A stretch of 64,000 nucleotides of DNA from a virus: IMG/VR virus record IMGVR_UViG_3300025646_000012, positions 1 through 64,000 of that record; one strand, written 5' to 3'. The stretch's first letter is position 1, and each line of letters opens with the position of its first letter. The notes beneath the pieces are model-generated. The model saw nothing but the letters and a program-made list of their open reading frames with translations, searched no databases and was not told the DNA's origin. A program made the position numbers and the translations under genes. Below are positions 2,368 to 16,893 of the stretch, in pieces.

Positions 2368-2443
2368 TGGTGCCTAGAGAGGGAATTGAACCCCCGACAC
2401 CATGCTCTTCAGGCACGTGCTCTACCAACTGAGCTATCTAGGC
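2368..2443 (-). tRNA. tRNA-Phe (GAA)
   Basis: Acceptor GCCTAGA pairs with TCTAGGC, A73, CCA encoded, anticodon loop CTGAAGA reading GAA, normal D and T arms. Confidence 0.95.
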
Positions 2444-3614: not shown

Positions 3615-4112
3615 ATGAAATATTTAGCAATTTTTGTTTTATTGGGTGGTTGTTTGCCCATTCTACAATTAGAGTCCACCCAATCAACATTTTCTATAGA
3701 TGTTGCCGATGAATTTGTGGGTATGGATGAAAGAAATCACAGAGAAGAACTTAAAGAATTTATGGGTATTGACCCAGTACGATATGAATGGTGCGCTGCA
3801 TTTGTAAATGCTGTGCTTAATATTCAAGGAATTCCTGGATCTGAGTCTGTAAGTGAATACCCACTCTTGGCAAGAAGTTTTTTAACCTGGGGTGAAGAAG
3901 TAACCGACGAACTGAAACCAGGTGATATTATTATTTTTCCACGTGGCAGAGAAGGTTGGCAAGGACACGTTGGTTTTTATGTTCGGACAAAATATATTGA
4001 TGATGTAAAATATTATTTAATACTTGGCGGAAACCAAGATAACAGTGTTACATATGAATTATTTCCAGCAAGGTTTATGATAGCTCAACGAAGATATGTA
4101 ACCGAGGAATAA
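3615..4112 (+). CDS. Lipoprotein-type NlpC/CHAP-like peptidase (TIGR02594-like)
   Basis: A 165-aa protein beginning with a short hydrophobic segment ending LLGGC, a good lipobox with the lipidated cysteine at residue 13, so it should be an envelope lipoprotein. The body matches the TIGR02594/CHAP-NlpC layout: WCAAFVNAVL (catalytic Cys near 60), a block with LKPGDIIIFPRG, GHVGFYV (catalytic His near 117) and GGNQDN. Members cleave peptidoglycan peptide cross-links. It sits alone, convergent with the tape measure gene with stop codons abutting. It could be the lysis endopeptidase, an outer-membrane-anchored lysis factor or a superinfection barrier; no holin is recognised beside it. Confidence 0.8.
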   Translation: MKYLAIFVLLGGCLPILQLESTQSTFSIDVADEFVGMDERNHREELKEFMGIDPVRYEWCAAFVNAVLNIQGIPGSESVSEYPLLARSFLTWGEEVTDELKPGDIIIFPRGREGWQGHVGFYVRTKYIDDVKYYLILGGNQDNSVTYELFPARFMIAQRRYVTEE

Positions 4113-5999
4113 TTATCTAGCGTTTCCAGCACCACCTCCTCCACCACGTCTGACAATTAAATCATTTCCATCTACGGCACCATTACTTGGAAACTGGAAT
4201 GTTTCATATTGTTGTGCAAAATTATTTACAACCGTTTGATTCACACCTTGGGTATTAGCAGCTCTAGCTAATACAGCTTCAGTCTCAGATCTTACAAGCC
4301 GCAGATCTCTTTCAGCCGCTTCAAGTTGTTCTGCATAAAATCCTCCAGTGTCGCCTGTTGCTGCAATATTTTCATTAATTGAAGTGATGCGATCAGCTAA
4401 AGCTTGCATTGTTTCAAATTGAGTGGATAATATATTTTCTGCTTCCTCAGTTGATGAAAATGGAAGATAACCTGATAATCCTAGAAAATCAACAATTCTA
4501 CCAGGCCCGAGAGCTCTTGCAATGCTTGCTTTAATTTCGTCCATACTTGGAATTAAACCTATTAAAAATTCACCAAGTTGAGTTACATATCTGGTAATTT
4601 TTTGAGTAAATGTTTCACCTTCAGGGACAATATTCTCATCTCCAGTAAATGCTCTTTCAATCTCGGATAAGAGTACATTTATTGGATGGAAAACTATATT
4701 AGCTAATACTCTAAAAATTCCTCCGACATTTGATGCAATACCTCTTACTGATGTCCAATTTCCCCACCAAGTATTCCAAGCTTCTCTTGCTTTTGCCTGC
4801 CCTTCTTCGGTAGTATCTTTAGCACCAGTTAGATTTCTTACATGATCAATGGCACGACCAACAGCATCAAATGGTGCTTGAATTAATTCTTTGATCATTC
4901 TAACAAAATCTACATCTTCAACTGTAGCAAGTAATGATGTAAACCAGTTACCACCTTCCTCACCTCTTTTGAAAGTACCATCCTCATTTAACCAGTCTGC
5001 TGGGACAATTTGTTTGATAAGCCACAAAGGCATATCTTTTATTAAATTTGCAAATTCACCAAAGAATGAACCTAAGGTTCCAGAAACAAATCCACCAATA
5101 CCACCACCAATTAAACGATCAAATGTACCCTCTCTATCTTCCATTTCAGCCGCGGCATTTTCAACACCATCAAATAATGAAAATATAAAAGCAATAGGTT
5201 GAAGGAATCTAAAAATACCGCGTACAAGCCTACTATTTGCAAAACCACTAACCGCACCTCTTGCACCACCACCAAGTGCATTTGATATAGTTTTAGTTAC
5301 ACCAGTAAATGTGTTTAAAATTGCTGGTGGAACTCTTAATGCTTTAAAGAAATTACCAATTCTACCAAAAAGATTATTAAGTGAAATAAGAGTTTTTTGA
5401 TAAAAACTTACATCTCTTGCAGAAACAAATCGAGTATTGCCAAATCTAGCAAGTCTTTGAAATTGACCTGCAGCTGCATTAAATGAATATCTTCTTGCAA
5501 AGAAATTATCAATGGCTTTTATTTGATTTGAAAGATATGTTCCAATATTGCCAATACCTCTACCAATACGAAATTCTTTATTCAGATTGGATGCCAAAAT
5601 TCTTAATGGCATAAAAAATGTATTGGCAATTGATCTTACAAAAAAACGAAAATTAGCAAGTGATGGTCCAAGACCTTCTGTAGCAAGAACAAGTCCGGTA
5701 GCAAAAGAAGCAACGCCGCCGACAAATCTAATTACATAACTAATAGCATCGCCAAACATACCACTACCAAAACCCAAGTCTCTCTCTTCAGATCTTGCAA
5801 TGGAAGCTGATTTTCTTCTTTCTTTTTCAGAGTCTGCCTCTTTTTGTCTTAACGCCTGTAATTCCAAGTACTCAAGGAATCCTCGAAGCGTACCAGAAAG
5901 ATTCTCAACAGCTTTAGTGGTATCACCTTGCTCTCTGAGTTGTCTTTCATTATCCGAACGTAATCTAGCAATTACATCGTTAAGAGTTGCATCAGCCAT
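4113..5999 (-). CDS. gp29-like: Tail tape measure protein (gp29 counterpart)
   Basis: A 628-aa protein close to T4 gp29 (590 aa). The N-terminal 85 residues are charged and helical, then come hydrophobic segments near 80-125, 260-285 and 295-315 with glycine-rich turns, and a helical C-terminal half, ending in a GGGGGAG tail. Hydrophobic patches in a long helical protein are typical of tape measures, which set tail length and pass into the host envelope. It lies directly downstream of the gp26-like gene with its frameshift extension, the standard place of a tape measure after its chaperones, and its ATG overlaps the extension's stop. Sequence similarity to gp29 is weak by eye; the call rests on composition and context. 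Confidence 0.8.
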   Translation of the reverse strand: MADATLNDVIARLRSDNERQLREQGDTTKAVENLSGTLRGFLEYLELQALRQKEADSEKERRKSASIARSEERDLGFGSGMFGDAISYVIRFVGGVASFATGLVLATEGLGPSLANFRFFVRSIANTFFMPLRILASNLNKEFRIGRGIGNIGTYLSNQIKAIDNFFARRYSFNAAAGQFQRLARFGNTRFVSARDVSFYQKTLISLNNLFGRIGNFFKALRVPPAILNTFTGVTKTISNALGGGARGAVSGFANSRLVRGIFRFLQPIAFIFSLFDGVENAAAEMEDREGTFDRLIGGGIGGFVSGTLGSFFGEFANLIKDMPLWLIKQIVPADWLNEDGTFKRGEEGGNWFTSLLATVEDVDFVRMIKELIQAPFDAVGRAIDHVRNLTGAKDTTEEGQAKAREAWNTWWGNWTSVRGIASNVGGIFRVLANIVFHPINVLLSEIERAFTGDENIVPEGETFTQKITRYVTQLGEFLIGLIPSMDEIKASIARALGPGRIVDFLGLSGYLPFSSTEEAENILSTQFETMQALADRITSINENIAATGDTGGFYAEQLEAAERDLRLVRSETEAVLARAANTQGVNQTVVNNFAQQYETFQFPSNGAVDGNDLIVRRGGGGGAGNAR

Positions 6000-6890
6000 A
6001 TTTCATAGACCTTCGTTTTTCTTCTTCTTTTTGTTCTTTCAGATGATCAAGTAGCATGTTCAAATAAACTTCCCTTTCCCAAGGTATTAGCATTTCAATT
6101 TCAGTCAAAGAGTAATGATGATGCTGCATTAATGAAAAGTTTACAGTATAATGATTTGCTAAATTATCATGAGAAAGGCATATTAAAAAAAATCGGACAT
6201 ACCTTCCAGTTTAATATTATTAGTTTCACCACAGCTAACACAATTAAAATCTACATTATGAATCAATCTAGGCATTTGTTCAATATAAGCACTTACTTTT
6301 TGGAATTGATCCTTTGTCATTGAATCAATAAATTCTTCAAGTTCTTTCACTGGAACATCTTTAGTACTAATACGTTCATCATTTGTATGAATAGCTGCAA
6401 TACACTTACCGATCATAGCAAAAGCATTTTGTGCCATAGATTTAGTATCTTTAATTCCAAGAGAAATAAGATCATCATAACTTGGCCATTTCATTTCCAA
6501 AGTAATTTCAGATGTTAATTCAATAGTGTTTGAAATCTTAGGTACATCAATTTTAATAGATGAAACATCAATAGCTATTTCATTACTAGTTTCACAATGT
6601 TTACACTTAATACCAACCTTTGATGTTTCACCAACAGATTTAGCTCTAATCTGAGTAAACATATACTCAACATCAAAGATTGTAAGTTTATCTTTTTCAA
6701 TATCGTTCTGGACACAAGCTGTAATTGTATCCACAACCGCATTTAGAATCGCGTTCATATCTTGCGATTCCATTGCCATCATTAAAACTTTTTCTTCTTT
6801 TACCAAATATGGACGATATTTTACCTTTTTATTCTGAGAAGGGATTACAATATCATACTTTGGTGTGTCATTCAACTTAGGTAAAGTCAT
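5992..6890 (-). CDS. Predicted -1 frameshift product: gp26-like plus 64-aa extension
   Basis: The gp26-like frame ends at GAT TTT TTT TAA. A run of eight T (6185-6192) forms the slippery heptamer T TTT TTT. A -1 shift there opens a frame that runs 64 codons without a stop to TGA at 5992-5994, overlapping the tape measure ATG. The extension contains YSLTEIEMLIPWEREVYL then a charged EEEKRR tail, the pattern of gpT-type tape measure chaperone extensions. The product would be about 299 aa. The alternative, a separate start at an in-frame ATG before QHHHYSL, lacks a ribosome site. Confidence 0.7.
6183..6890 (-). CDS. gp26: gp26-like baseplate hub/tape measure chaperone
   Basis: A 235-aa protein of the T4 baseplate gp26 family (PF12322 type): N-terminal KYDIVIPSQNKKVKYRPYLVKEEK, a helical block with the LTIFDVEYMFTQIRAKSVGE motif, then a zinc-ribbon-like pair of cysteines KCKHC (near 109-112), a central WPSYDDL segment and a second FNCVSCGE pair near 220. 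In T4 gp26 acts in hub assembly with gp51, gp27, gp28 and gp29. Here it directly precedes the tape measure and ends on a slippery T run. The start ATG lies 10 bp after the gp54-like gene, in the same late leftward operon. Confidence 0.85.
   Translation of the reverse strand: MTLPKLNDTPKYDIVIPSQNKKVKYRPYLVKEEKVLMMAMESQDMNAILNAVVDTITACVQNDIEKDKLTIFDVEYMFTQIRAKSVGETSKVGIKCKHCETSNEIAIDVSSIKIDVPKISNTIELTSEITLEMKWPSYDDLISLGIKDTKSMAQNAFAMIGKCIAAIHTNDERISTKDVPVKELEEFIDSMTKDQFQKVSAYIEQMPRLIHNVDFNCVSCGETNNIKLEGMSDFF
6185..6192 (-). promoter_or_regulatory. Candidate -1 ribosomal frameshift slippery site
   Basis: Eight consecutive T on the minus strand at the very end of the gp26-like frame, in register as T TTT TTT before the stop TAA. 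Shifting by -1 joins a conserved-looking 64-codon extension. No clear downstream pseudoknot was worked out by eye. Confidence 0.65.
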
Positions 6891-9791: not shown

Positions 9792-10529
9792 ATGTTTTTT
9801 ACAAACTATCCAAGAACATTATATCAATTTGGGACAGAACAATCTGCTACTGCAATCCAAAATATTTCAGTTTATGTTGATATTATTGATCAAATAAAAG
9901 ATAATATTAATTTTTATGAAACAACTGAAATTCAAGATGGTGAAAGACCTGATACATTATCACAGGAACTATATGGCACCGTAAGATATTATTGGACTTT
10001 TTATTTACTTAATGATAATATTCGTGAAAGAGGTTGGCCTTTAACTGTTCAAGAAATTAGAGCAAGAGCAATTGAAGATTATCCTAATGTTGTATTAACA
10101 ACCAGAGATGGTAATACTCTTATTGAACATTTCCAAGTTGGTGATACAATCATAGGTCAAACCTCTGGTGCAACTGGTGTGATACTAAAACGCAATTTAG
10201 ATCTAGGTCAGATATTTATAAAACCAATAAATGGTCTAACTTTTATAAGTACTGAAGTTATTAGAGATAACAGTGATCCTGAGTTCCCTCAATCAGTCCA
10301 ACTTGTTTCTGCTGTAAATGAGTATAATGCAATACATCATTATGAGGATGGTAACGGTGTATGGACAGATATAGATCCATTTTCAGCACCAAGTGTTTTA
10401 TTAACTCCTGTAACTTATCTTGACCGTTATCAATCTGCAAATGATGAATTAAGAAAAATAAAAGTTATAAAAAGATCCGCAATTAATCAAATTGCAAAAG
10501 CTTATCAGGAAGCATTGAGAACAGCATAA
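9792..10529 (+). CDS. gp53: gp53-like baseplate wedge protein
   Basis: A 245-aa homologue of T4 gp53 (196 aa). Shared layout: N-terminal FTNYPRTLYQ, a LysM-like helix-strand block ERPDTLSQELYGTVRYYWTF, then a small inserted beta domain (about residues 95-150, GNTLIEHFQVGDTIIGQTSG) absent in T4, and the C-terminal YNAIHHYEDGNGVW and DELRKIKVIKRSAINQ segments that match T4. gp53 joins neighbouring wedges around the hub. It follows gp48 by 2 bp and is followed by a methyltransferase gene that overlaps its stop codon. Confidence 0.87.
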   Translation: MFFTNYPRTLYQFGTEQSATAIQNISVYVDIIDQIKDNINFYETTEIQDGERPDTLSQELYGTVRYYWTFYLLNDNIRERGWPLTVQEIRARAIEDYPNVVLTTRDGNTLIEHFQVGDTIIGQTSGATGVILKRNLDLGQIFIKPINGLTFISTEVIRDNSDPEFPQSVQLVSAVNEYNAIHHYEDGNGVWTDIDPFSAPSVLLTPVTYLDRYQSANDELRKIKVIKRSAINQIAKAYQEALRTA

Positions 10530-11173
10530 TGAATAAAGATATTAATAAAAATATTCTTGAAGAAGTGCATAAAATTGCATTATACTCTACTGCAGAATAT
10601 GTAGTAGAACATATGCATAATATTCTGCCAGAAAAAAATTGGAAAGATGTACATACAAAAGCAATTAAACAAATTTTAAATGATGGATTAATTTTAGAAT
10701 TTGGAGTTTACTCTGGAGAAACTATTAATCACATTGCAAGACATTTACAATCAAGAAAAGTTCATGGTTTTGATTCATTTGAAGGTTTACCTGAAGCATG
10801 GATGCCAGGATACGATAAAGGTAGATTTAAAAGAAATGATATTCCTGAAGTATCAGGAAATGTAAAATTACATATCGGTTGGTTTAAAGATAGTATTCCT
10901 AAATTTTTAAAAGATTATAATGAAAAAATTGCATATCTTCATGTAGACTGTGATTTGTATAGCTCAACCAAAACAATTTTTGATTTATTAGGACATTTAA
11001 TTAAAAAAGGTACTATTATTGTATTTGATGAATACTTTAATTATCCTGGATGGAAAAATGGTGAGTATAAAGCTTTTCAAGAGTTTGTAAATAGTAATAA
11101 TATTACTTATGAATATTTAACATATAATTGTGTATCAGAACAAGTTGCTGTAAAAATAGTGGAAACTAATTAA
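10529..11173 (+). CDS. TylF-like SAM-dependent methyltransferase
   Basis: 214 aa with the class I methyltransferase core of the TylF/macrocin O-methyltransferase family: LEFGVYSGET (SAM-binding glycine loop near 55-65), HGFDSFEGLPEAW, LHVDCDLYSSTK (metal-binding aspartates near 138-140) and IVFDEYFNYPGW. Relatives methylate sugar hydroxyls, so its target could be a glycan made or modified by the phage glycosyltransferases here; that is inference. It is wedged between gp53 and the hub gene with one-base overlaps on both sides and is noticeably AT-rich, consistent with late insertion into the core operon. Confidence 0.85.
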   Translation: MNKDINKNILEEVHKIALYSTAEYVVEHMHNILPEKNWKDVHTKAIKQILNDGLILEFGVYSGETINHIARHLQSRKVHGFDSFEGLPEAWMPGYDKGRFKRNDIPEVSGNVKLHIGWFKDSIPKFLKDYNEKIAYLHVDCDLYSSTKTIFDLLGHLIKKGTIIVFDEYFNYPGWKNGEYKAFQEFVNSNNITYEYLTYNCVSEQVAVKIVETN

Positions 11174-12531
11174 TGGTTGGTACACCACAAAATAGAGCGG
11201 AAACACCGTTTGATTATGAACTGGAAAGAGCTATAATAACCTCACCTCAGTTTAATGATGGTGCTACTCTTGATATTAAAAATGTAATTACAGATATTGA
11301 AATTTTCGAGCATTTAGATAAGCCTTATCTAACTGGTAATATTATTCTTGTCGACGATAATAATATTTACAATAACGTTAATTTTTCTGGTTCCGAAAAA
11401 ATATCATTAAGATTTAGATTACCTGATGCTGATGCAATACCTATTGATAAAGATTTTATTATTGAAAAAACTATAAAAAATGCAAGAGGCAACGATAAAC
11501 AGTCTGCAATTCTTTTTCACATTGTTGAACAACACGCATTTGATTCTACAATTATAAATGTAAATAAAGCTTATACTGGTAAACCTGTAGAGATTATCCA
11601 AAAAATTATTACTGATAATCTAGGTAAGGAATTTTCAACACCAATTATTTTAGATGCTCAAGAACCAATGAAGGTTTTAATACCAAACCTTACTCCATTA
11701 CAAGCAGCAACTTGGATTCGTGATAGAGCAACAACAATTGACGGTGTTCCTTTTTATTTTTTTGCTACATTAGCAAATGATAAGCTTCATATAATTCCGT
11801 TAGATGATATGCTTGCTACTGCACCTGATTCTAGACCGTATGTTTACTCACAAATATCAGCATCATTATTAGTATCAAGATCTATAGATGAACAAGCCTA
11901 TTTAATACAGGAATTTAGTACTAGATCAAATGATAATATTATATCACTTGTAAAAATGGGTTATGTAGGCTCACAGAATTATTTTTATAATTCAATTACC
12001 GGAAATTTTGTAGATAATAGAGGTACATTTTTTAATCTATCAGAAGTTTTAAATACCTTAAAAAATAAAGATATAATTCGTAATAATCAAAATCAATTCG
12101 GTTATGCAAGTAATTATAAATTAAATAATGTTTCATTTACACAATTAAAATCTGTGGTTCGTACTGATATTACACCTACAAATACATATAATAATATTAA
12201 TAATTATAATCAAGCCCCAGATGCAAACAAACATAAATTAAAAATTGTTTCTGAGGCGTTAAGAGAATTAATAGTAAGAAATTCAATTGATATTGCATTA
12301 CCAGGACGCAATTTTCTAAATGGCAGATATAGTAATACAATTGGTAATCAAATTAGATTAAGATTTCTTTCAACATCGACTGCATCTAGACCTGGTACTG
12401 AACAAATAGATACTAAAAAATCTGGTGATTATTTAATGTATGCAGTAAAGCATCATTTTAAAAAAGAAAGATATGATGTGATTGCAAGTTGTGTTAAGCT
12501 TGCAGATCTAAATGAGGAGCCACCTGAATGA
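11173..12531 (+). CDS. gp27: gp27-like baseplate hub
   Basis: A 452-aa hub protein (T4 gp27 is 391 aa). The N-terminal tube-like domain carries the VITDIEIFEHLDKPYLTGNI block seen in T4-type gp27, followed by FIIEKTIKN and ILFHIVEQHAFDSTIINVNKAY, the linker VEIIQKIITDN and a second tube-like domain ending in YLMYAVKHHFKK. gp27 forms the trimer that joins the spike to the tube and tape measure. The next gene overlaps its end by 4 bp and supplies the gp5 OB domain, as expected for the hub-spike pair. Confidence 0.87.
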   Translation: MVGTPQNRAETPFDYELERAIITSPQFNDGATLDIKNVITDIEIFEHLDKPYLTGNIILVDDNNIYNNVNFSGSEKISLRFRLPDADAIPIDKDFIIEKTIKNARGNDKQSAILFHIVEQHAFDSTIINVNKAYTGKPVEIIQKIITDNLGKEFSTPIILDAQEPMKVLIPNLTPLQAATWIRDRATTIDGVPFYFFATLANDKLHIIPLDDMLATAPDSRPYVYSQISASLLVSRSIDEQAYLIQEFSTRSNDNIISLVKMGYVGSQNYFYNSITGNFVDNRGTFFNLSEVLNTLKNKDIIRNNQNQFGYASNYKLNNVSFTQLKSVVRTDITPTNTYNNINNYNQAPDANKHKLKIVSEALRELIVRNSIDIALPGRNFLNGRYSNTIGNQIRLRFLSTSTASRPGTEQIDTKKSGDYLMYAVKHHFKKERYDVIASCVKLADLNEEPPE

Positions 12532-13370
12532 GTTTCTATGGTGATAATATTAATAGATTCTTTTTTGGTATTGTTGTTAATAATAATGATGCTGATTTAA
12601 ATCTTGGTAGAGTTCAAATTAGAATCCCTGGTTTACACAGCTCAGAAATTCGTAATTATGACCTACCTTGGGCACAAGTTATGTTACCAACAACTGAGCC
12701 AGGTGTAGGTGGTGTTGGAGCAAACCCTATGATTGCAAATGGTGCTCAAGTATTTGGTGTGTTTTTGGATGGAAAAGATTCACAGATTCCTTTGGTACTC
12801 GGCACAGTACCTAAAATTGATAGACCATCAGTACAACAAAGATCTACATTTATCGGTGATACAATACCACCTGCATATACTACAACTAGTCAAGATAACG
12901 GACCAAGAAATGGATCAAGGATTATACCTCCTGAATCATTAGAAGGTTCAACTAATGCAGAAAAAGTATATAGATTTTTTGTAAATAATGGATTTAATCC
13001 AGAACAAGCTGCAGGTTGGGTTGGTAACTTTGCTGTAGAATCTACGGTCAATATTGACCCAACCGCTTATAATCCAAACGATGTTGGTGCTGAAGCCTTC
13101 GGTATTGCCCAGTGGCGAAAGGAAAGATATGATGCACTAAGAGCTTGGGCAGGAGAAACTGCACAAGATTATAGGACATTGGAAACTCAGCTTGGATTTG
13201 TACTATATGAATTAGAAGGTAGTGAAAGAACTGCTGCAACAAATATTCGTTCAACACGTACTGTTGAAGATGCAGCAAGAACAATTGATTTATTATATGA
13301 AAGAAGTGATGGAACAAAAAGAGAAGTAAGAGTCACATATGCCCGTGATGCATTAGCGAGGTTCAGATAA
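12528..13370 (+). CDS. gp5: gp5-like hub protein: OB fold plus tail lysozyme domain
   Basis: 280 aa. Residues 1-110 form the gp5-type OB fold (FFFGIVVNN, GRVQIRIPGLHS, LPWAQVMLPTTEPG, VFGVFLDGKDSQIPLVLGTV). After a linker rich in proline and threonine, residues 145-280 match the Phage_lysozyme2 type (KVYRFFVNNGFNPEQAAGWVG, a glutamate near 170 in NFAVEST as candidate catalytic acid, AFGIAQW). T4 gp5 has a T4-lysozyme domain followed by a beta-helix; here the lysozyme is of a different family and the beta-helix is absent, apparently supplied by the 14917 gene. Confidence 0.85.
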   Translation: MSFYGDNINRFFFGIVVNNNDADLNLGRVQIRIPGLHSSEIRNYDLPWAQVMLPTTEPGVGGVGANPMIANGAQVFGVFLDGKDSQIPLVLGTVPKIDRPSVQQRSTFIGDTIPPAYTTTSQDNGPRNGSRIIPPESLEGSTNAEKVYRFFVNNGFNPEQAAGWVGNFAVESTVNIDPTAYNPNDVGAEAFGIAQWRKERYDALRAWAGETAQDYRTLETQLGFVLYELEGSERTAATNIRSTRTVEDAARTIDLLYERSDGTKREVRVTYARDALARFR

Positions 13371-14920
13371 TGGTTACGGTTCCGCAAATTAATATAACTA
13401 ATTTAAATCAATCTTTATCTTCTTTATTAAATAGAGTTAATTTTGATGTAATTCAAACTGCTGCTGCAAATACAGCAACACAACTTCAAGCTGCAACAAC
13501 TACTACCTTAGGAGTCAACGTAAATGATGTGGTAGGAGGTTGGCAAGGCCTAACTGCTGAAGTTGATGTTGTTGATATTACTTCTGTTTCTAATCGTGGT
13601 ATTGCATTATTACAAGAAAATCCACCAGGTGTAAATTTAGTAAGTACTTTTGATGGAGGTGCTAAAACTGCACTTCAATCCATTACTGGTCTAAATTCCG
13701 AAATTACGGAAGGATTAAATGTAATAGTTGCAGCACTTCCTACAGCTGAGGGTGTTGGTGCCGCATTAGAAAATCTTTCAACCTTAAATATAGATCAACT
13801 TGCACCAGCAATGCAATCAATTGCACCACAAGAATTACAGTCACTTGCTGCTACATCTGCTATTAGCCAATTAACTAATTCTGGTATTTTTAATAATTTT
13901 TCAAGTACAGTTACTGCGGTTACTTCTAGTTTCCAAAATTATTTAAATCAAGGATTTGGCCAAACTATAAAAGATTTAATTGAAGCTGATACTCAACCAG
14001 TTAGATTTGCAATTACTCAGTTAACTCAAGATACAGGTATTCGTGTACCAGAATCTATTAAACGACAAGTAACTTTACTTTTAGATCAAAAAGACTTTCT
14101 TGGAGCAGCTCAACTTTTAGAGCCGTTTTCAAATCTTGATATTATTTCTTTAGAAACTGAATTATCTCAAGTAAATACAACTGCAAGTAGTTTAATTAAT
14201 CAATTTAATCCAGCAACAAGCGCATTTGGTACTTCAACAGCACCAGTTTTTTCTTTAGGAAGTTTAGAAAATACTTGGAATGATACGGATACATCTGTTC
14301 GAAGACCGGGATCAAGTAGTAGTAATTCATATGCATTTACTATTATAGGTAGTATGGAAGAATTGGAAGCTGAGTTAAGAACAGCAACAAGAGAAATTAC
14401 AGAAACAGTTATTCATTGGACAGCTAACTATATTGATCAAGCTCACATTGGTGCTGAAGATGTACATGCTTGGCATTTAGAACGTGGATTTAGTGGTTGT
14501 GGTTATCATTATATTATTAAACGTGATGGTAGTATTCAACGTGGTAGACCAATTAATCTTGAAGGAGCTCATGCTGCTGACTTAGGTCACAATAATTATA
14601 GTATTGGTATTTCACATGTGGCCGGTTACAATTGTACTTCCGGAACACCAAATCCAGATAGATATATTTCAGCTGAATCAATTAATGATGCACAATGGAG
14701 ATCGCAGCGTGATTTCCTTGAAGTATTCTATAGAGTATTTCCAGGCGGACAAGTACTCGGTCATAATCAAATTGCACAGAGTGGTAAAGTTGATCCGGGT
14801 TTTGATGTTGACGCATATATCCTAAATACATTTGGTAAAAGAAATGTATACGCATATAATAGAGACCTACCACCATTGAGTAGAGCCGAACTTATTGCGG
14901 CACGAGGAGTAGTTGTATGA
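13370..14920 (+). CDS. Tail protein with C-terminal amidase domain
   Basis: 516 aa in two parts. The first 300 residues are low-complexity, rich in T, N, Q, A and S, with helical repeats and no recognised domain. Residues about 340-500 form an N-acetylmuramoyl-L-alanine amidase of the Amidase_2/T7 lysozyme type: VIHWTANY (zinc His near 347), GFSGCGYHYIIKRDGSIQRGR, a histidine in GLGHN-like VLGHN and KVDPGFD (near 474), the conserved zinc and catalytic positions. It would cut the stem peptide from glycan strands during infection. It lies between the gp5 OB-lysozyme gene and the spike gene with overlapping stop-start codons, so it is probably part of the spike complex. Confidence 0.8.
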   Translation: MVTVPQINITNLNQSLSSLLNRVNFDVIQTAAANTATQLQAATTTTLGVNVNDVVGGWQGLTAEVDVVDITSVSNRGIALLQENPPGVNLVSTFDGGAKTALQSITGLNSEITEGLNVIVAALPTAEGVGAALENLSTLNIDQLAPAMQSIAPQELQSLAATSAISQLTNSGIFNNFSSTVTAVTSSFQNYLNQGFGQTIKDLIEADTQPVRFAITQLTQDTGIRVPESIKRQVTLLLDQKDFLGAAQLLEPFSNLDIISLETELSQVNTTASSLINQFNPATSAFGTSTAPVFSLGSLENTWNDTDTSVRRPGSSSSNSYAFTIIGSMEELEAELRTATREITETVIHWTANYIDQAHIGAEDVHAWHLERGFSGCGYHYIIKRDGSIQRGRPINLEGAHAADLGHNNYSIGISHVAGYNCTSGTPNPDRYISAESINDAQWRSQRDFLEVFYRVFPGGQVLGHNQIAQSGKVDPGFDVDAYILNTFGKRNVYAYNRDLPPLSRAELIAARGVVV

Positions 14921-16893
14921 CAACAATTAATGATGAATTACAGGAACGTATAGCCAGACTCGGCCCTATTATTATAGAGCAAGGTTTAGAGCAGGATTTG
15001 TCTGTAGATCCTACCGGTTTATTTCCACAAATTCAAACATGGTTTACGTCAAGTCTAAATAGACTTTCCTATGGTGCTGATGTTAGTACAATAAATCTTG
15101 GCGGAGGATTTAATCAAACTGATGTAGCATTAGGTACACCAGTAGCATCAATGCGTACACGTAATCGTGCAATTACAACTGGTTCAGGTCATAGTTTAGA
15201 GTTAGATGATACACCTGGTAATCAACGTATTATTTTTCGTCATAATACAGGTAATGGTATAGAAATTAAATCAGATGGTAGCATGATTATTTCTGCCGGG
15301 AAACAAATCATTTCAGTTACCGAAGACCAAAAAATTATTATTGAAGGTAATGCTACAATTATATATGGCGGTAATGTTGATATGCAAGTAGCAGGAGATT
15401 TTAATCTTTCAGTTGCTGGTGATTATAATTTATCTGTTGGTGAAAATAGAAATGAAAATGTAGAAGGAGCATATCGTTCTACAACTGAAGGTAATCAAGG
15501 TCATATTATTAAAGGTAGTTTATCAAATACTATCCTTAAAACTTCAACAAATACTATTCTTGGTGATAATAATACAATTACAAAAGGTAAAGCACGTTAT
15601 ACATCACAAGGTGATATGCAGATTGCTTCTGGTGCAACTACTAGACTATCCGCAAAAACAAATATGTTCCAAAGTGCTTCAAATATGAATATTGCGGCAT
15701 CTGATTTATCTGTATTTGGTGCAACAGGTACATTCGGTGGGGAAAATATAGTAATATATGGTAAAGGTGCTACATTTGGTGAAGGTGTAACGGCACCAAC
15801 ATTTCATGGTGATTTGGATGGTAATGCTGCAAATACATTTGCTCAATCATATGGTGAAGCAGCTACATCTGGGGGCGGATCAATTACAAATACTGCAACT
15901 CCAACCACATCACAACCAACATCCACTGTTCTGAGTAATTATTTAAATAATACACCATATGGAACAGTAACAGTAAGTGTTGATATTGGTGATCACTTCT
16001 TACGTGCGCTGAATCGTTCTGATGCAACTGGAGGTCTTTCCTCTAGAGATCTTACTACTTCAGAAATCCGTGCTCTACTAAGAACTGAAGGTGTTCGTAA
16101 TGATCCTAAATTTATTGGTAATGCAATTGCATCAGGTACACTTTCTCCATCTTATTCACAAATAAATCCACCAAATATTACCCGAATATCTGGTCGTGCT
16201 CCTGAACCTTATAGAGGTAATAATCCAGCCGGGCGTAGAGCCCCAGGTTCAGATACAAGATTCTTGGTACCTGATGATTTAACTGAAACAGGATTCTTAC
16301 CTTATATTCCAATTACATCTTCAACAATAATTACAAGAAAAACACCTATTGCTGAAGGTGTATATCTTTCTCGTTATCTTGGTGGTATAGGACAGCAAGG
16401 TAGATTATCACAAATACCTGTAACAAGACGTCAACAAATTGCCAGAAATTTACAACCAAATGCAGAAATATTTAGAAGAATTCTTTCAAATAAAGAATCA
16501 GATTTTAATAATCATAGATTAATAGTTGCGGAAGGATTATATCAACCAACTGATGCTGAACAAGCATTTTCAGGTTGGTCAACAAGTATTAATAAATTAC
16601 GTTCTGAAGGTAGAGCAGTTGTATATGAATTTCATAACTCAAACGGCTTAATTGATATTGCAAAGACATTTGATCTTGCTGTTTACTTAAAAACAGTAAC
16701 AGTATTTGAAAAATTAATTTTGGATTATGACACATATGCTATTGATGGGGCATTAAATACTCAGATTATTATTATTATGCCAGAACTCAGTTCCAATTAT
16801 GAGGTTTCCGATGGTGGGTTTATAAAAGATGTGGAAACACGTTATAATGGATCAATTATGTCAAGTACGGATCTTTTGGAAATTAACTTATAA
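14917..16893 (+). CDS. Beta-helix spike protein (gp5 C-terminal counterpart)
   Basis: 658 aa. Residues about 90-300 are short repeating strands (IEIKSDGSMIISAGKQ, VDMQVAGDFNLSVAGDYNLSV, GNTI/LGDN patterns) like the gp5C triple-stranded beta-helix. A threonine/serine linker near 310-340 follows, then a globular C-terminal region of about 300 residues that I do not recognise (SGRAPEPYRG, LPYIPITSS, VVYEFHNSNGLID, IIIIMPELS). It overlaps the amidase gene by 4 bp. I infer that it forms the membrane-piercing needle; the C-terminal domain could be an extra enzyme or binding module. The gene is followed by an unusual regulatory gap (16894-16995). Confidence 0.75.
   Translation: MTTINDELQERIARLGPIIIEQGLEQDLSVDPTGLFPQIQTWFTSSLNRLSYGADVSTINLGGGFNQTDVALGTPVASMRTRNRAITTGSGHSLELDDTPGNQRIIFRHNTGNGIEIKSDGSMIISAGKQIISVTEDQKIIIEGNATIIYGGNVDMQVAGDFNLSVAGDYNLSVGENRNENVEGAYRSTTEGNQGHIIKGSLSNTILKTSTNTILGDNNTITKGKARYTSQGDMQIASGATTRLSAKTNMFQSASNMNIAASDLSVFGATGTFGGENIVIYGKGATFGEGVTAPTFHGDLDGNAANTFAQSYGEAATSGGGSITNTATPTTSQPTSTVLSNYLNNTPYGTVTVSVDIGDHFLRALNRSDATGGLSSRDLTTSEIRALLRTEGVRNDPKFIGNAIASGTLSPSYSQINPPNITRISGRAPEPYRGNNPAGRRAPGSDTRFLVPDDLTETGFLPYIPITSSTIITRKTPIAEGVYLSRYLGGIGQQGRLSQIPVTRRQQIARNLQPNAEIFRRILSNKESDFNNHRLIVAEGLYQPTDAEQAFSGWSTSINKLRSEGRAVVYEFHNSNGLIDIAKTFDLAVYLKTVTVFEKLILDYDTYAIDGALNTQIIIIMPELSSNYEVSDGGFIKDVETRYNGSIMSSTDLLEINL

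Follow-up and report, generated by a model that had tools for sequence, protein, structure and literature searches.

The window analysed here comprises positions 1–64,000 of a virus record 121 kb long (IMG/VR IMGVR_UViG_3300025646_000012) and carries T4-type genes for a gp26-like baseplate hub protein, a tail tube protein, the end protector gp2, a head closure protein, and relatives of gp48 and gp53; the virus is a marine, uncultivated, T4-type relative of the Kyanoviridae cyanophages. The gp26-like gene (minus strand, positions 6186–6890, with a TAA stop at 6183–6185) encodes a 235-aa protein, the putative short tail assembly chaperone, that matches the Pfam family T4_baseplate (PF12322; E = 1e-61, 208.6 bits against a curated cut-off of 24.5) and the baseplate hub family PHROG_150 (E = 4e-63). 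Its identity to phage records does not exceed 40.5% among the matches listed.

Read along the minus strand (6890–6183), the gene ends in ...GGT ATG TCC GAT TTT TTT TAA, so that the heptamer T TTT TTT (6186–6192) lies within a run of eight T's (6185–6192). After a −1 shift, the first codon would be TTA (6186–6184), and the new frame stays open for 64 codons until a TGA at 5994–5992. This −1 extension (5992–6186, minus strand; LICLSHDNLANHYTVNFSLMQHHHYSLTEIEMLIPWEREVYLNMLLDHLKEQKEEEKRRSMKYG) resembles the C terminus of T4 gp51, and its fusion to gp26 gives a predicted frameshift product of 299 aa. The extension overlaps the next gene, whose ATG is at 5999–5997, by eight bases (ATGGCTGA). Nine nucleotides 5′ of the heptamer lies a Shine-Dalgarno-like GGAAGG (6202–6207, minus strand), a presumed upstream stimulator. 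A preliminary description of this DNA had reported the T TTT TTT TAA end, the 64-codon −1 frame, and the overlap of its TGA with the tape measure gene; re-reading of the sequence and coordinates found all three correct.

The gene 3′ of the extension (628 aa, 4113–5999, minus strand) is the tape measure gene, as indicated by its position and by 6 of 15 aligned relatives that match tail length tape measure PHROGs; the window's own ORF gave no tape measure match in a PHROG search. In five related loci (L084, L089, L092, L093, and L097, from Mosig, Melnitz, and rhizobial phages), the extension and the tape measure gene are separated by one or two additional small genes. Convergent with the tape measure gene is a plus-strand gene (3615–4112) for a CHAP-domain protein with a lipoprotein-like start. 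Also on the plus strand, the function of T4 gp5 is split over three ORFs (12528–16893) carrying Gp5_OB plus Phage_lysozyme2, Amidase_2, and a Gp5_trimer_C spike, respectively; hence two types of enzyme acting on the cell wall may be present in the tail. The baseplate cluster contains a TylF-type methyltransferase gene as well (10529–11173, plus strand), located 3′ of the gp53 relative.

The slippery heptamer is conserved in relatives

Viral contigs were scanned three times with gp26 proteins, and these contigs and about twenty isolate-genome regions provided 251 gp26 loci. Of the heptamer loci, 203 are distinct and form 89 clusters that share less than 75% nucleotide identity. An in-frame T TTT TTN was present near the gp26 stop in 250 of the 251 loci. 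Among the distinct loci the six T's are invariant and the last base varies (C in 143, T in 44, G in 10, and A in 6), specifying Phe or Leu. In 203 of 203 cases the codon before the Phe of the heptamer is NNT, although it may specify Asp, Ser, Asn, Ala, Thr, or His; TTT is likewise the only codon used for the first Phe. In the bodies of the same genes the corresponding choices are made only 33%–80% of the time. Compared with same-gene codon use, the fixation of NNT and of TTT has a log10 P of about −16 and −13, respectively (89 clusters; the clusters are treated as independent, so that the strength is somewhat overstated). Simultaneous slippage of two tRNAs needs frozen NNT and TTT codons and leaves the last base free, while selection on the protein has no such need. 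The window contains 17 tRNA genes; one of them, tRNA-Phe(GAA) at 2368–2443 (minus strand), would decode the TTT codons of the heptamer.

Both the T run and the −1 frame are kept in Kyanoviridae, Schizotequatrovirus, Emdodecavirus, Pootjesviridae, Pseudomonas phages, and uncultivated marine relatives. The sole relative lacking the heptamer (L139, positions 2001–2891) has one T fewer, which places gp26 and the extension in one frame, and no second copy of gp26 was found in its 236-kb record. Either this locus contains an error of sequencing or assembly, or the phage makes the long form only and has no short one.

The −1 extension evolves as protein

All 197 complete distinct extensions are open in the −1 frame, over 57–73 codons. 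Together with the near-universal run, this is what an alignment of the junction across relatives, proposed in the preliminary description, was expected to give if the frameshift is real, and the stops in close relatives that would have spoken against it never occurred. The co-occurrence of the heptamer and the open −1 frame is more than chance. In 606 close pairs (80%–97% identity), substitutions at codon positions 1, 2, and 3 of the −1 frame numbered 3,156, 1,169, and 8,932. An excess at position 3 was also seen in extension codons 3–18, which lie 5′ of the first commonly available ATG (855, 815, and 2,558 substitutions). We conclude that the extension evolves as protein.

We also searched the relatives for a conserved start codon or ribosome site belonging to the extension, the other observation that would have counted against a frameshift, and found neither. 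Extension codon 20 is an ATG in 63% of clusters and also in the window (at 6129), and the Shine-Dalgarno energy before it is about zero (−0.05, compared with −3.7 at gp26 starts). Possible starts vary between loci: ATG, GTG, and TTG are all missing from extension codons 1–18 in 56 of 197 loci and from codons 1–22 in 12. In 36 loci a stop shuts the −1 frame within three bases of the heptamer, so that a ribosome arriving from gp26 must enter the frame at the run itself.

Sequences flanking the heptamer

The GGAAGG of the window (6207–6202) has a duplex energy with the anti-Shine-Dalgarno sequence of −6.8. In most clusters a similar stretch, made of LEG codons and often reading GAG GGN, ends 7–9 bases 5′ of the heptamer. 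Its energy is −5.9, compared with −4.5 in synonymous shuffles (p = 5e-9, 89 clusters) and −1.8 in gene bodies; within the clade of the window, too, the element is enriched over synonymous shuffles (p = 0.006). These data suggest that the element is under synonymous selection across relatives, presumably as a stimulator of slippage.

Downstream of the heptamer, folding exceeded that of shuffled sequence in other lineages (mean z of −1.98) and, mildly, in the window's clade (−0.67); control stretches showed no such excess. Folding of the window itself revealed no downstream stem (z = +1.2), and slippage there would thus depend on the T run together with the upstream element. In the P-SSM2-type group (one cyanophage group, 60 sequences), an 11-bp stem starts 5 nt 3′ of the heptamer. 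Its positions are paired in 86.7% of cases, with 33 double changes, while slid controls are 24%–46% paired; none of 500 shuffles, made without control for relatedness, reached as high a covariation. One pair of this stem is U-A, G-C, or A-U (25, 14, and 12 sequences, respectively) and joins a synonymous position of an Ala codon to a base whose change exchanges Glu, Ala, or Val. RNAalifold recovered only 4 of the 11 stem pairs in this group. Downstream stems differ between lineages.

Relationship to T4 gp26 and gp51

Both T4 gp26 and T4 gp51 align to the fused product. In a blastp comparison the alignment of T4 gp51 with the fusion crosses the junction, pairing SLTEIEMLIPWERE with SLNSISKMIPAERG (E = 1e-8), and a profile of the extension matches the C terminus of T4-type gp51 (E = 5e-5). 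By these alignments, the extension is homologous to the C terminus of T4 gp51, and T4 gp51 as a whole is a gp26-like domain followed by the extension. Hence gp26 and the gp26-gp51 fusion would correspond to short and long chaperones, encoded in T4 by two genes. T4 genes 26 and 51 lie apart, on opposite strands.

The preliminary description had called the extension gpT-like and linked gp26 to lambda G. A conserved −1 extension is indeed present, but it resembles the C terminus of T4 gp51 and not, detectably, lambda T. Likewise, gp26 shares the frameshift scheme of lambda G without sequence homology: profile comparison by hhalign found no relationship of gp26 to lambda G or of the extension to lambda T (probabilities of 0.15 and 0.08 percent). 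In structural comparisons, neither the gp26 sequence searched against solved structures nor its AlphaFold2 model (pLDDT 89.5) searched against the PDB gave a significant match. Weak matches of the model included HK97 gp13 (2ob9, probability 0.41) and 3fgx (rmsd 1.8 Å, TMt 0.44), both of which have been termed tail assembly chaperones (PMC9603447). The link to lambda is thus one of scheme, with at best a weak fold resemblance to HK97-type chaperones. In a model of the natural fusion in L139 (pLDDT 88.9), the extension is predicted with less confidence (block means 61–89) to form helices, one of them long and C-terminal.

Separate gp51 genes were found in 1,339 phage records, mainly from phages of Escherichia, Klebsiella, and Acinetobacter and also of other hosts. 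The extension was found in 584 records, a minority of which (e.g., Aeromonas phages) match through a separate gp51; they are mainly cyanophages and include Vibrio, Rhizobium, Sinorhizobium, and Pseudomonas phages. The taxonomic range of the frameshift form is wider than that of the separate gene, and this spread suggests that it may be the older of the two.

Discussion

The comparative data lead us to propose, with a probability of about 0.93, that a single gene yields the short and long tail assembly chaperones of this T4-type phage through −1 ribosomal slippage at the T run. Most ribosomes would terminate at the TAA and release the 235-aa gp26. We infer that a fraction of ribosomes, with tRNA-Phe on TTT TTT, would shift back by one base within T TTT TTT and go on to make the 299-aa gp26-gp51 protein. 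The GGAAGG element, nine bases 5′ of the heptamer, would probably aid this step, as would a downstream hairpin in related groups though not here. If the pair works like lambda G and GT, the short form may coat the tape measure protein and the helical tail of the long form may bind it, so that it stays soluble and ordered until the tube is built.

That the extension is instead a small gene "gp51" with its own start, perhaps translated by coupled reinitiation after the gp26 stop, is how many phage records annotate it, and the frequent codon-20 ATG, shared by the window, would suit such a start. We nevertheless consider this very improbable: the protein is conserved 5′ of that ATG, which is preceded by next to no Shine-Dalgarno energy, many loci have no start codon in the region at all, and T4 gp51 has the extension fused to a gp26-like domain. 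A separate gene would also leave the frozen heptamer and the covarying stem unexplained. Long runs of T or A provoke transcriptional slippage, and the eight T's of the window might similarly cause RNA polymerase to slip, producing a mixed mRNA pool from which both proteins are made. The odds of this are just as slim, since only six T's are present in 159 of the 203 distinct loci, the NNT TTT TTN register is the one that tandem slippage on the ribosome predicts, and the conserved Shine-Dalgarno-like element and the RNA stem would both act on ribosomes.

Homopolymers are prone to sequencing error, and the in-frame fusion of L139 might suggest that the gene is really one frame broken by such errors. 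However, the same frame break recurs in hundreds of assemblies and in the isolates P-SSM2, P-SSM4, S-PM2, phi-pp2, and phiN3, whose genomes rule out this explanation in practice.

Ribosomal slippage as proposed here has counterparts in several known systems. The Kyanoviridae S-PM2, P-SSM2, and P-SSM4 have gp26, the heptamer, the extension ("gp51"), and a long downstream gene in the order seen in the window, although the P-SSM2-type group has the downstream stem that the window lacks. T4 shares with the window the PF12322 domain of gp26 and the C-terminal extension of gp51, but has two separate genes where the window has one with a proposed −1 shift. Lambda G and GT are likewise a short protein and a −1 frameshifted long protein encoded directly 5′ of the tape measure gene, with no detectable sequence homology to gp26 or the extension of the window; the lambda heptamer is G GGA AAG, that of the window T TTT TTT. 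The E. coli dnaX signal consists of an upstream Shine-Dalgarno-like element, a slippery heptamer, and a downstream stem. Its upstream element, about 10 nt 5′ of the heptamer, is matched by the GGAAGG of the window, whereas the gene is unrelated, its heptamer is A-rich rather than T-rich, and its downstream stem has no equivalent here. The tail assembly chaperone locus of Vandenendeviridae, as described for phage Adele (PMC12846349), likewise has a −1 shift at a GTTTTT run ending the short chaperone gene; this is a different phage family.

The preliminary description had left room for the scheme being new to this phage group. Tail assembly chaperones of T4-like phages were, however, already identified by Vladimirov, Gautam and Davidson (Virology 2022, 566:9–15), as its title and two papers citing it indicate. 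In the PRFect paper (PMC10885494) it is cited in connection with T4-like phages that have one short gene and one long fused gene, and in the Adele paper for slippery poly-T sites within the short chaperone genes of T4-like phages. To judge from these citations, this kind of system was known, and very probably the T4-type frameshift itself as well. In the accessible literature we found nothing stated on the covarying stem, the clade of the window, or synonymous selection for the Shine-Dalgarno-like element. T4 gp51 has been reported to be absent from the final particle (PMC3004832). None of the GenBank records examined has the joined gene; they list the extension as a separate "gp51" or as "hypothetical," or omit it.

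The proposed frameshifted chaperone of this virus thus appears ordinary in kind and, on sequence grounds, unusually well supported. Several hundred phage records list a "gp51 baseplate hub assembly catalyst" separately or omit it, an annotation that recognition of the frameshift corrects. With the covariation and synonymous-site data in hand, reporters could test the frameshift signal directly. On balance, we lean slightly toward a reading in which the chaperone frameshift of T4-type phages is throughout a complete dnaX-like signal, with a constant T TTT TTN and synonymously selected Shine-Dalgarno-like core and with interchangeable downstream stems that lineages gain and lose; the frameshift arrangement would be ancestral, and the T4 gene pair a derived duplication that replaced it.
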